Source of the DNA: a virus
IMG/VR virus record: IMGVR_UViG_3300045119_000151
Coordinates: 1-60,725 of that record
Strand: one strand, 5' to 3'
Length of the DNA stretch: 60,725 bases
The notes under the pieces are model-generated. The model made no database searches. It was not told where the DNA came from and saw nothing but the letters and a program-made list of their open reading frames with translations. Positions within the stretch are counted from its first letter, which is position 1. Each line of letters begins with the position of its first letter. Of the stretch, positions 43,076 to 48,158 are shown one piece after another. The position numbers were made by a program, and so were the translations under genes.

Positions 43076-44179
43076 TCAATGTCGTGCCGCCGCGCTCTCG
43101 CGGTCGGCTTCTGCGTATCGCGCCAGTAATCTCGCGCGCTTCTTCGGGTCTTCCCATGCGCCAGCAGCCACCATCGCCGCTTTGCGTTCAGGAGACACGT
43201 ACACTTCGTTGCGGCCGAGTCGGCGCCCATTGCCATTGGCAGTGCCAGAACTCGATGCCATGCGCGGACCCGAACTACGCACAGTGGTAGTCGTGTCCGC
43301 TTCTTGATTTGGTTTCGCTCGCGTCTTGAACCGGTGCGGCAATTGATCGCGCACACGGTCTTCCAATTCTTCCCAATACTCGGTGGTCTCCGGATTAAAT
43401 CCTTCCTCGGTGACGGCATTGTCGATCGCTTGCACGATCAGCGAATCTTGATCCTTGCCCTTCGGGTCGTACCACTTGAGCTTTTGCGCGAACGCTACTG
43501 CTTGCGTAATCACTGTAGGCGATATCTGCGCACCGCTGACTTGACCGCCTTGCGCAGCCTGCGTCTCTTGCGCCGAATGCTCCTGACCCTGCCGGCGTTG
43601 CTGCTCGGCACGCTGGAGCGCGAATTCAATCTGCCGCTTTTGATCGCGCAGTTGATACTGAATCTCGGTGACTTCCGCCACCCCATCGCCATCGCCTGCT
43701 TTGACGCAGGTCGACATCGTGTCTTTGGCTTGTAGCAATTGCGAATTGATTTGCGCGAGCTTGTCGCTGAGCCCGGTGACGTCGTAGTTGAAATTACGAC
43801 CTTCGATGGCCGCAATGCGCTCCATCATGACCTGACGGTCGGCCTGCAACTGCTCGATCAGCTTATCTTTTGCCTGACCCGTACCGCGGCGCTTGGCATT
43901 ACGCGCTTGACGTTCTTTCTTACGACGCGCGCGGCGTTCTTCAACGGTCTCGCCTTCGACCTCGTCGTCGCTCTCGCTGTGGCCGACGCGTTCATCCTCA
44001 TCGACTTCGCCGCTAGCATCCGCACCGGCCTCATCAGCCTCCGCGTCCGCCGCTTGATTGATCGGCTTGCCGTTGTCGTCGGTCTCGACAACGACTAACT
44101 CGTTCTCGGCCTCCTTGTCGGCGCCGTCTTTGTCATCGGCCTGATTAGCATCAGACCCGTTCTTGACCTTTTCAACCAC
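43076..44179 (-). CDS. Scaffolding-type protein, 367 aa
   Basis: Strongly acidic N-terminus (EVDEDERVGHSESDDEVEGE), a long charged coiled coil (EERRARRKKERQARNAKRRG ... IEQLQADRQVMMERIAAIEG), and a basic C-terminal part (SPERKAAMVAAGAWEDPKKR). This composition and the position between portal and coat genes fit a scaffold. Confidence 0.75.
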   Translation of the reverse strand: MVEKVKNGSDANQADDKDGADKEAENELVVVETDDNGKPINQAADAEADEAGADASGEVDEDERVGHSESDDEVEGETVEERRARRKKERQARNAKRRGTGQAKDKLIEQLQADRQVMMERIAAIEGRNFNYDVTGLSDKLAQINSQLLQAKDTMSTCVKAGDGDGVAEVTEIQYQLRDQKRQIEFALQRAEQQRRQGQEHSAQETQAAQGGQVSGAQISPTVITQAVAFAQKLKWYDPKGKDQDSLIVQAIDNAVTEEGFNPETTEYWEELEDRVRDQLPHRFKTRAKPNQEADTTTTVRSSGPRMASSSGTANGNGRRLGRNEVYVSPERKAAMVAAGAWEDPKKRARLLARYAEADRESAAARH

Positions 44180-44196: not shown

Positions 44197-44688
44197 TTAA
44201 ACGAACGCAATCGCCGCGAGCGGATCGGGAACGATGCCGCCCAACTCTAAATCTTTCTGCACGATGAACTGTACGACGCCGTCGCCATACGGAACTTCGA
44301 AGCGCTCGGCACCGCCGAACTTCGGTACGCGCACATAGTCGCCGCGCTTAACCCACGCGCCCTCCGGCCATTCCTGACCGGTGTTGCGATTCTTAAAAGC
44401 GAGCGGACCGTAAGAAAGAACCTTCGCGACTTGCGTATTGGCTTGAATGGTCGCGATGACTTCATCTGGAAGGACGAAGTTCGACTTGCCGACCGTGCGC
44501 TTGGCGACGCGAATTTGCATCAGCACGAGCGAGCCGAGCGGGAGGTAATTCGGATCGACTTTCGGAAACGCTTCTTCAAGCGTCTGATTGATCGCCGCAA
44601 TCGGCGCGAAACTCGCGCTGGGCGAACCCTTCAGCGGATTAGCGGCTGCTAATTGTCTTGCCAAACCAACCGATTCAATTCTGCTCAT
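44197..44688 (-). CDS. GroES-like (Cpn10-like) protein
   Basis: 163 residues. LPLGSLVLMQIRVAKRTVGK, FVLPDEVIAT, then AKVLSYGPLAFKNRNTGQEW, VKRGDYVRVPKFGGAERFEV and GGIVPDP match the GroES beta-barrel order, with the strand that follows the mobile loop. Like T4 gp31-type proteins it may assist coat folding through host GroEL. It precedes the scaffold gene. Function inferred. Confidence 0.78.
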   Translation of the reverse strand: MSRIESVGLARQLAAANPLKGSPSASFAPIAAINQTLEEAFPKVDPNYLPLGSLVLMQIRVAKRTVGKSNFVLPDEVIATIQANTQVAKVLSYGPLAFKNRNTGQEWPEGAWVKRGDYVRVPKFGGAERFEVPYGDGVVQFIVQKDLELGGIVPDPLAAIAFV

Positions 44689-44969: not shown

Positions 44970-45101
44970 CTACGGACCCGGCTTCTTGCTATTCACTGGA
45001 GGGCCAGCCGGAAATTTTCCGGTGCGTGCGTACTCCTGATGCTGACGCAACGGGCCGCTCGCGGGACTGCTCTTGCTCGGATTGTCGGATTTCTTCGCCA
45101 T
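44970..45101 (-). CDS. Small basic protein, 43 aa
   Basis: Short frame with GAGGTG ribosome-binding site. Peptide MAKKSDNPSKSSPASGPLRQ HQEYARTGKFPAGPP (Lys/Pro-rich). Not recognised. It fills the space between the 149-aa gene and the promoter. Confidence 0.5.
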   Translation of the reverse strand: MAKKSDNPSKSSPASGPLRQHQEYARTGKFPAGPPVNSKKPGP

Positions 45102-45109
45102 ACATCACC

Positions 45110-45559
45110 TCAAGGTTGAAATTTCATTGCAGCCAATGCCGCTTTCGATTGCCGCTCATGTCGCTCGATCCACATCATCGCCTCATCAAGCTTCGTTTGC
45201 GCAATCGACAGTTCACGCGATGTCGATGCGCCAAATCTACCAATCGACGAAGTTAAGCCCGACGCGCGCGATGCAACCGTATCAACAGTGACACTGTTAT
45301 TGGGTTGAGTTGACATTGGAATTGCGCTCGGCGCGTCGGTGTTCGGTGGAGCAGTTGCCTGCTCTGAAGTGGCGGTCTGTTTCGGTGGCTCATCCGCCAA
45401 CACCAACCCGTTCGCACTCATGCGCTCGCCGGTCATCGTGTTGAACGTCTCACCAATTTTATTCACGAAGGTATCTTTCGCATGACTCCACTCGAACCCA
45501 TCGGGGATCGCCAATTTACGATGGGCATGCGTTGCGCCTTCGCTTGCTGAATTGCTCAC
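45110..45559 (-). CDS. Head-region protein with Acb2/Tad1-like C-terminal signature, 149 aa
   Basis: N-terminal half FEWSHAKDTFVNKIGETFNT with Thr/Pro-rich linker. Residues 114-130, SRELSIAQTKLDEAMMW, match the C-terminal signature of Acb2/Tad1-like proteins and of the gene at 7589, which reads SREISLALAKTEEAVMW. Here it is fused to an unrelated N-terminus and sits between portal and scaffold genes. I infer a second ligand-binding or oligomerising helix pair; role unknown. Confidence 0.6.
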   Translation of the reverse strand: MSNSASEGATHAHRKLAIPDGFEWSHAKDTFVNKIGETFNTMTGERMSANGLVLADEPPKQTATSEQATAPPNTDAPSAIPMSTQPNNSVTVDTVASRASGLTSSIGRFGASTSRELSIAQTKLDEAMMWIERHERQSKAALAAMKFQP

Positions 45560-45560
45560 T

Positions 45561-48158
45561 TCACTCTCCTGGGTTAATGCCGGTGCCAGTCGATACCGTA
45601 GATCGATGACCCGTCAGTGTTTCTGCTGTTGAGATGGCCATTGCCGTGTCGTTGTCGGCGGTGTTGATTTCTAACTTGGTTTGATTATCGAGCGCAGCGC
45701 GCTGCATGTCGCCCTGCTCCTTCATTTGCGCGACATCCACATCGACAGCACGATCCGCCTGCTTGTTCTTATCGTCGCGCTGCCCATCGATCGCGCGCAA
45801 CTGCAATTCCTTCATGCGCTGCGCCACGTCGGCGGACTTGATCTGTGCTTGCCCATGCTGCCTCGTCTGCTCTAAAGCCTGCTGATTCTTTCCACGGAGA
45901 GTCTCGACCGCCGTCGCCGCCTGCACAGCGGGATCTTGCGGCTGCATCGACTGCTGCAACTGCTGAACCATCTGGAACGCCTTGGCGATGATTGGCGGCA
46001 GACTCTTGAATGCTTCCGCCGCCTCATCGATAGCCAAGCCCGACGCCACCGCCATGACCTTATCGACCTCACGCCGCGTGTCGGCGTCCTTGAATTTCAG
46101 CATCTCCGCGAAGTCCTGATCCACCGCTGAACTTGCATGCTCATACACGCGAGACGCATACCACAGCGTCATGTGCTCAATCAAATGCTGCAAGATCGCC
46201 GGTATAAACTTGCCCATCACCATCGGCATCATCCCAAAGAACGGCGATTGCATGTAGTCCAAGTGTGCTTGGATGTGCGCTAAGTGATCCTGCTCCGGGA
46301 ATGCCGAGATCGGACGACCCAAGGTCGCCGCGACGTTCTCATTCACGGCGTTCAGTTCATGCGGCTTGGTCTGCGGTGCGAGCAGTTTCTCTGGATGCGC
46401 GATCTTAAGCCGCTCCAAGAGCAGCATCTCGACCTCGCGCGCGTTGTACAATTCCGGGTGCGCATCAGACCGCTGTGACACAACCTGTATTTGCGCAAAC
46501 CGCTGTACCTCACTGAAAATACGCGGATCGGCGACCGGGATCACATCCATCGGCCCTTGGTAGTCCTCACGCATCGCGAGCAGTTCGCCCGTCTCGTCGA
46601 ATATCTGCTTGTCCGTCACATACATCTTGTTGATGCGATGAAGCACGAGCAACGTGCGCTCCATCGCCGAATACAGTCTCCCGTGGATCGCCGATAACAC
46701 GGCCATGCCCTGTTCGATCAGCGCGAGTGTCGTACCGACCGGCATGTTCGGATGCTGCTCGGCTAAGTCCTCGAACGTCGTGCGCACCACATCCTTGCCG
46801 GCATCGACCAAGAATCCGAGCAACTGATACAGCACCGTCGACGTCGGGTTGTACGGGATCGCCATAATCAACTTGCGGATGTCATCGGCGCCGGGACCGC
46901 CTTCGAGTTCCGTCACTTGCATCGGCTGCGGCGAAACGCTTTGTCCGCCCTGCACACTGCCCTTCAATTTCAGCATCGCCGGGAAGTTGTTCACATGCGC
47001 CGAGTCAAGCAGCGCACGCAGCGCACCAGTCGCCGCCGCGGGCAAGCCCGCCATCATCTGCGGCAGTCCTATCGCCATCGCACCGCGCCACGGCACGAAC
47101 GGCCACTCAACCACCCACGCCATCGGCTCAATCAGCTTGTCGTCTTTCTCCCAGTTGCGCACGATGCCGAGCACCTTCTTGGTCATCGAGCACAGGCGCA
47201 CGATGTATGGCCGCACTTCGTCATCGGCCTCGTCATCGAACTCCGAGAAATCCTGCATGATCTCGACTTCGTACATGCGCCGCACGCCGTCTTTGTTGTA
47301 TACGTCGTCGTCTTTGCCTTCGACGCGGTCAGTCGCTTTTTGCGCCAGCGTTTTCTCTGGCGGCATGCTACCGACACCAAGCACGCGATCTTCCGTGTAG
47401 ATTTCATCGCGTACGCGCTTATCGAATTCCATCCGCGTGATGTCTTCGATGAACGTGCGCCGCTCAGCCGAATAAAAATCCGCTGCCGCTGCCGGAATGA
47501 TCATGAAGTCAACCGGGACGAACGACGCCTCCGGACGCTTCTTGCCGGGATTCCATACCCAGCGCTGATACTGCACACCGCCTAGCGGCACTTGCGTGAG
47601 CAATTGCTCAAGCGTCGCGCGAAACTCGGGAATCTGGCGCGTGAGCTGCCAGTTCATATGCTTGGTCTTGCGCCGCGCCTTCGCTAACCGCTCCTTCGTC
47701 GGATCACCCGGAATAAAATCCTTAGCCGGCCCACCGGGCGGCATAATTTCTTTGATCGCGCGCGCTTCGAAGTCCACGCACGCTTGCGTGAGCATCGGAT
47801 GCACTGTCTTGCTCGCGCCTTGAAAACTTGCGCCACCCGGCGCATCGCCGCCCATGCCAGTGCGGCGGATACCGTCCTCGTACTGCTTATCGCGCGGCTC
47901 GCGCGCCTTGATGTCGTACTCGATGGACTCGCACAGGTCCGATGCGAACGACCCGAGAAACGACTGCGTGAACGCCGTATTACCCAGCAGTAGGTTATCG
48001 TAGAACGAGGAGTCGCCCTCCGTTGCTTCGTCCTCGCCGGTCTTGACGATAGCTCCACCATCCGGCGTGTCCTCGACATCGGTACGCTCCGGCTCTAACT
48101 CCAGCACATCACCGAGTTCGGATTGCGACTCGTCAGCAGCGTTCGGTGTGTCAGCCAT
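45561..48158 (-). CDS. Portal protein
   Basis: 865 residues. Acidic N-terminus, then the portal pattern GGASFQGASKTVHPMLTQAC, VDFEARAIKEIMPPGGPAKDF, and PLGGVQYQRWVWNPGKKRPE, continuing through long helical crown/wing regions and a Gln-rich C-terminus (QQLQQSMQPQDPAVQAATAV). Portal function: dodecameric DNA entry ring. Large size and acidic ends are seen in podovirus-like portals. Between the 97-aa gene and the 149-aa gene. Confidence 0.9.
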   Translation of the reverse strand: MADTPNAADESQSELGDVLELEPERTDVEDTPDGGAIVKTGEDEATEGDSSFYDNLLLGNTAFTQSFLGSFASDLCESIEYDIKAREPRDKQYEDGIRRTGMGGDAPGGASFQGASKTVHPMLTQACVDFEARAIKEIMPPGGPAKDFIPGDPTKERLAKARRKTKHMNWQLTRQIPEFRATLEQLLTQVPLGGVQYQRWVWNPGKKRPEASFVPVDFMIIPAAAADFYSAERRTFIEDITRMEFDKRVRDEIYTEDRVLGVGSMPPEKTLAQKATDRVEGKDDDVYNKDGVRRMYEVEIMQDFSEFDDEADDEVRPYIVRLCSMTKKVLGIVRNWEKDDKLIEPMAWVVEWPFVPWRGAMAIGLPQMMAGLPAAATGALRALLDSAHVNNFPAMLKLKGSVQGGQSVSPQPMQVTELEGGPGADDIRKLIMAIPYNPTSTVLYQLLGFLVDAGKDVVRTTFEDLAEQHPNMPVGTTLALIEQGMAVLSAIHGRLYSAMERTLLVLHRINKMYVTDKQIFDETGELLAMREDYQGPMDVIPVADPRIFSEVQRFAQIQVVSQRSDAHPELYNAREVEMLLLERLKIAHPEKLLAPQTKPHELNAVNENVAATLGRPISAFPEQDHLAHIQAHLDYMQSPFFGMMPMVMGKFIPAILQHLIEHMTLWYASRVYEHASSAVDQDFAEMLKFKDADTRREVDKVMAVASGLAIDEAAEAFKSLPPIIAKAFQMVQQLQQSMQPQDPAVQAATAVETLRGKNQQALEQTRQHGQAQIKSADVAQRMKELQLRAIDGQRDDKNKQADRAVDVDVAQMKEQGDMQRAALDNQTKLEINTADNDTAMAISTAETLTGHRSTVSTGTGINPGE

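Follow-up and report, generated by a model that had tools for sequence, protein, structure and literature searches.

What is the signature helix of a phage sponge doing in a gene that directly follows the portal? Acb2 and Tad1 are phage proteins that soak up bacterial alarm molecules; the Acb2 sponge forms homohexamers and binds cyclic di- and trinucleotides, and the Acb2/Tad1 hairpin packs into dimers and hexamers. The window analyzed here, the whole 60,725-nucleotide stretch of IMG/VR record IMGVR_UViG_3300045119_000151, encodes a complete Acb2 relative (the 7589 protein) and, far from it, a 149-aa protein with the helix-3 signature at its C-terminal end (Table 1). The sequence-only reading had placed this second gene between the portal and scaffold genes, which holds with three smaller genes intervening on the scaffold side, and had suggested either a sponge carried in the virion or a structural role for a helical motif common to the two proteins.

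Table 1. Coordinates of the features discussed, in window numbering
Feature	Position	Strand	Remarks
Complete Acb2 relative, 73 aa	7589..7810	(+)	65 bits to PF24729
Scaffold-like gene	43076-44179		
GroES-like gene, downstream of the slot	44197..44688	(-)	Weak Cpn10 match
43-aa gene (MAKKSDNPSKSSPASGPLRQHQEYARTGKF...)	44970..45101	(-)	Absent from the ORF list; by-eye likeness to post-portal proteins
149-aa gene with Acb2/Tad1 helix-3 signature	45110..45559	(-)	GTG start; its SD, AGGAGAG, overlaps the end of the portal gene
Helix-3 signature, residues 114-134 (SRELSIAQTKLDEAMMWIERH)	45158..45220	(-)	PF24729 columns 35-55; pLDDT about 95
Possible degenerate helix 2, residues 92-110	45230..45286	(-)	Weak: L116/L348 alignment, shuffle tests, low-pLDDT helix
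S/T/A/P-rich linker, residues 50-91	45287..45412	(-)	Predicted disordered
N-terminal part, residues 1-49	45413..45559	(-)	No relatives found; one predicted helix, 24-49
Portal (head-to-tail connector) gene, defining the slot	45561..48158	(-)	

The likeness between the two proteins proved to be real. Residues 114-130 of the 149-aa protein (SRELSIAQTKLDEAMMW) are identical to the corresponding segment of the 7589 protein (SREISLALAKTEEAVMW) at 10 of 17 positions without a gap, and the Pfam profile PF24729 (Acb2_Tad1_hairpin) matches residues 114-134 with 28.0 bits (E = 2.6e-6 against all of Pfam), above its gathering score of 27, although the match covers only columns 35-55, that is, 21 of the 58 columns, corresponding to the last helix. 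When the whole record was scanned with this profile, just two matches were obtained, the 7589 protein (64.9 bits, columns 2-58) and the 149-aa gene (28.8 bits, E = 8.7e-8, columns 35-55), and none was found in 14 control genomes. A profile built from 37 Acb2 proteins gave 30 bits (E = 1.6e-11, as a single target). At the level of sequence, these matches establish homology between the C-terminal helix and the Acb2/Tad1 hairpin, and every helix-3 column that is invariant in the alignment is retained. The 7589 protein itself is modeled as a confident helix hairpin (mean pLDDT, 86.6), whose best PDB matches are T4 Vs.4 (7uq2) and Acb2 (8h2x), with Tad1 lower down; the weak Foldseek E-values are to be expected for 73 residues. 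A recent duplication of the 7589 gene can be ruled out as the source of the helix, since in its C-terminal part the 149-aa protein is closer to the Acb2 proteins of other phages (27 bits) than to the 7589 copy (16 bits).

Three features recur in relatives of the 7589 protein, namely the NVMRHQYR block at the N-terminus, a helix 2 with KDxG, and the helix-3 signature, and it is the first two of these that set the 149-aa protein apart. Profile tests found no match to the conserved N-terminal block and no detectable relation of the N-terminal half to Acb2, as the sequence-only reading had stated; at the sequence level, an unrelated segment followed by a flexible linker stands in place of the dinucleotide-binding part of Acb2. 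The Y8A substitution in T4 Acb2 disrupts dinucleotide binding (PMC12657218). The counterpart of Y8 is probably the tyrosine in the NVMRHQYR block; roles of other residues in Acb2 and Tad1 are taken here from reviews or treated as inference. The 149-aa protein contains no tyrosine at all and so lacks the residue on which dinucleotide binding by T4 Acb2 depends. Its helix 2 has either disappeared or degenerated strongly, and the evidence for a shortened form at residues 92-110 is suggestive: the protein of L116 aligns over 42 residues with 55% identity, including this region, shuffle tests gave p values of 0.005 to 0.16, and a helix is predicted at 94-106 with a pLDDT of only about 50. The lack of a match to the N-terminus/helix-2 profile of the 7589-type Acb2 clade does not exclude a helix 2, since other hairpin proteins in our data set miss that profile as well. 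A different arrangement, in which a long insertion would separate helices 2 and 3 of an Acb2 and residues 1-46 would be the N-terminus plus helix 2, had been suggested by the AlphaFold2 helix at 24-49 and found no sequence support in shuffle tests (p = 0.53 and p = 0.12-0.45). Because the known binding parts are missing, the 149-aa protein is probably a reworked relative of the sponge rather than a working one.

The structure model was computed with only helix-3 rows in the alignment, so that helix 2 was not imposed. It contains a confident helix at residues 109-146 (pLDDT about 95), which extends through the tail after the MW pair and carries the basic residues R133, R136, and K139, together with the helix at 24-49 and no strands; the fold beyond helix 3 is of low confidence, and the N-terminal part was modeled from one sequence. 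Foldseek and VIA-align returned a single, meaningless spliceosome match in the PDB, which does not imply a difference in fold, and a single-sequence PDB search with the 149-aa and 7589 proteins yielded chance matches only. Neither protein was recognized by NCBIfam or PADLOC. No homologue of the whole 149-aa protein was found in phages, IMG/VR, or genome contigs, nor any relative of residues 1-49 or of the linker in the same collections, and a plasmid search returned one match (E = 0.6) that did not cover the signature. Likewise, no homologue of the protein was detected in 224 DNA sources (the window and 223 loci). About 160 of them are portal-related loci from IMG/VR, some breaking off shortly behind the portal, and in these neither the protein nor its N-terminal part has a homologue near the portal. 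The sequence-only reading had looked to predicted structures and to homologues for a decision, and the outcome was mixed, with helix 3 alone confidently predicted in the model and no whole-protein homologues available for inspection.

The GTG start codon of the 149-aa gene lies 1 nucleotide past the portal stop, immediately preceded by a Shine-Dalgarno-like sequence, and its GC3 of 0.55 is below that of the portal and capsid genes, a low value common to the 7589 gene and to the 76-aa gene nearby. Between it and the scaffold-like gene lie genes for proteins of 43 aa, 76 aa, and 163 aa, the last being GroES-like with homologues annotated as co-chaperonin GroES in relatives. The 43-aa protein contains a motif, RQHQEYARTG, that resembles by eye those of the small proteins that most relatives encode immediately behind the portal (RQRYQLATG, RQHYRLATG, NMHKRLAMG, and VPQHKRIAMG).

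The portal of the record is about 50% identical to that of Caulobacter phage RW and its relatives, among which the stretch from the portal to the GroES-like gene varies. Two records found via the 7589 protein, L091 and L095, have a related portal with a normal, full-length acb2 directly behind it, followed by homologues of the same 76-aa, GroES-like, and scaffold-like genes, so that acb2 occupies the exact slot of the 149-aa gene; in each, this is the only copy, and no acb2 was found in 25 other portal-related records searched whole. The Acb2 encoded in the slot of L095 (L095:2965-3267) has about 20 extra residues inserted between its second and third helices, and shorter insertions at this place occur in the Acb2 proteins of L096, L117, L121, and L130, which indicates that the loop tolerates them. 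Head genes are also common company for acb2 in general. For 20 ordinary Acb2 genes, the longest ORF on the same strand, no more than 1.2 kb away to one side, was assigned with PHROGs, which gave terminase, portal, or major head proteins in 8 of the 20 cases, tail proteins in 2, and replication or integration genes in 4, and Sinorhizobium phage Aussie has its Acb2 copy between head-to-tail adaptor and stopper genes. Since acb2 often lies in head and packaging clusters, the location of the 149-aa gene says little about carriage in the virion.

Compared with known proteins, the 149-aa protein resembles Acb2 (anti-CBASS 2; T4 Vs.4 7uq2, 8h2x/8h2j; PF24729) in its helix-3 signature, SRExSxAxTKxxEAxMW, and in its slot, but differs in having no NVMRHQYR block, tyrosine, or recognizable KDxG helix 2, and in carrying an unrelated front part of 110 residues. 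Like Tad1 (Thoeris anti-defense 1; 7uav, 8kbe), it is of similar length and has a differing N-terminal part before the same signature helix, which continues after MW; in Tad1, however, an antiparallel beta-sheet domain precedes the two helices, whereas none is predicted here, and no match to Tad1 was found in sequence or fold. Further hairpin proteins with unrelated N-termini were recovered by scanning for [DE]EAMMW, which returned Tad1-like proteins as well as a fusion of 160 aa (L232, L325) and hairpins of only about 60 aa (L331, L278, L236), and by a second scan, which added hairpin proteins of 99 aa (L348, L349). Apart from the Tad1-like proteins, these have a helix 3 nearly identical to that of the 149-aa protein (QTKLDEAMMW, RELSIAQTKIDEAVMWL) under N-termini unrelated to Acb2, the exact string TKLDEAMMW occurring in just three other viral contigs among those searched, besides this record. 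The hairpin proteins matched by PF24729 nevertheless align from column 15-18, with a recognizable helix 2, unlike the 149-aa protein, which aligns from column 35. New N-termini placed before helix 3 are thus a known theme, and the variant here is a match beginning no earlier than helix 3 in a gene that fills the acb2 slot after a portal. In the 160-aa fusion (L232:10750-11229, L325:8342-8821), an N-terminal domain (YVVKHQPDVGGYYVQFADGY) precedes the hairpin among small genes; no head genes are present among the listed, unannotated ORFs of L232, L325, and L278, and in L348 a terminase-like ORF follows some 4 kb further downstream. In two further records (L120:3140-4525, L123:3854-4549), Acb2 runs without a stop into a holin-like/membrane-protein frame (...KHITA, then hydrophobic segments), suggesting either an Acb2-membrane protein fusion or a frame joined by sequencing error, and in L107:1-1140 Acb2 ends a long open frame with a ParB-like segment upstream, as judged by eye.

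Our leading explanation, held tentatively and at somewhat less than even likelihood, is that the 149-aa protein belongs to the Acb2/Tad1 hairpin lineage as a derived member, encoded in a post-portal accessory slot and joining an oligomerizing helix to a new N-terminus, for which the existing fusions of such hairpins to other N-termini provide a precedent. An ancestral acb2 in the slot would have given rise to the gene, with the C-terminal helix kept; this descent is drawn from position, as one sequence of the protein is known. Helix 3 would then oligomerize the protein, alone or mixed with the complete 7589 Acb2, and present the new N-terminal arm, although helix 3 alone might not oligomerize. 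If a nucleotide is still caught, the site would be that of the trimer channel (cyclic trinucleotide) and not the dinucleotide site. The protein is probably a late accessory product, expressed along with the head genes; its packaging is not supported, nothing in the data indicating it.

The structural role proposed earlier fits one part of the data, in that a head-assembly or other late protein could have taken the hairpin end as a multimerization module with no anti-defense role, which would account for a gene inside the head cluster in which helix 3 alone is conserved and all other Acb2 binding parts are missing. We consider this rather unlikely: the conservation at the post-portal position that would be expected of a head structural protein was not found, the lack of homologues in portal relatives indicates that the protein is not a conserved assembly part, and in two of these relatives a true acb2 fills the same slot. 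The proposal may hold in the sense of a motif serving oligomerization; nothing points to a role in the virion. Alternatively, the gene could be a decaying remnant, an old slot acb2 whose front half was removed when it recombined with unrelated DNA and whose product is inert. The orphan N-terminal part, the GC3 below that of the portal and capsid genes, and the complete Acb2 elsewhere, which would make a slot copy dispensable, are consistent with decay, but the frame is open, with a good Shine-Dalgarno sequence and tight spacing to the portal stop, all invariant helix-3 columns are kept, and the low GC3 is found in the 7589 and 76-aa genes as well, so that we regard a remnant as unlikely.

Readings that retain a sponge function fare worse. 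A working Tad1-like sponge, with its new N-terminus binding cyclic trinucleotides or another signal, could appeal to the unrelated N-terminal domain of Tad1 before the same helix signature and to the helical, basic tail after MW, but it seems quite improbable given the absence of predicted strands, of any Tad1 match, and of the dinucleotide pocket residues. We give a similarly low probability to a sponge paralogue of the head operon that co-assembles with the 7589 Acb2 and whose N-terminal arm tethers or re-targets the sponge (e.g., to portal or prohead) or alters the response of Acb2-sensing systems (e.g., Panoptes). The virion-carried sponge, injected with the DNA, is a very remote prospect; its one argument was the position between the portal and scaffold-like genes, which is ordinary and uninformative for Acb2 genes and is taken in two relatives by acb2 itself, and the parts of the dinucleotide pocket are missing. 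Moreover, sponges act by amount and not by turnover (PMC12043709), so that a few copies per virion could hold few molecules.

To conclude, the signature helix of the sponge is found here parted from the dinucleotide-binding part of Acb2, in a slot where relatives keep acb2, which hints that the helix can be reused as an oligomerization module and that a match to PF24729 by itself should not be taken to mean an anti-CBASS sponge. With one full and one half copy in the same phage, this virus offers a natural test of whether partial Acb2 proteins are partners, decoys, or debris.
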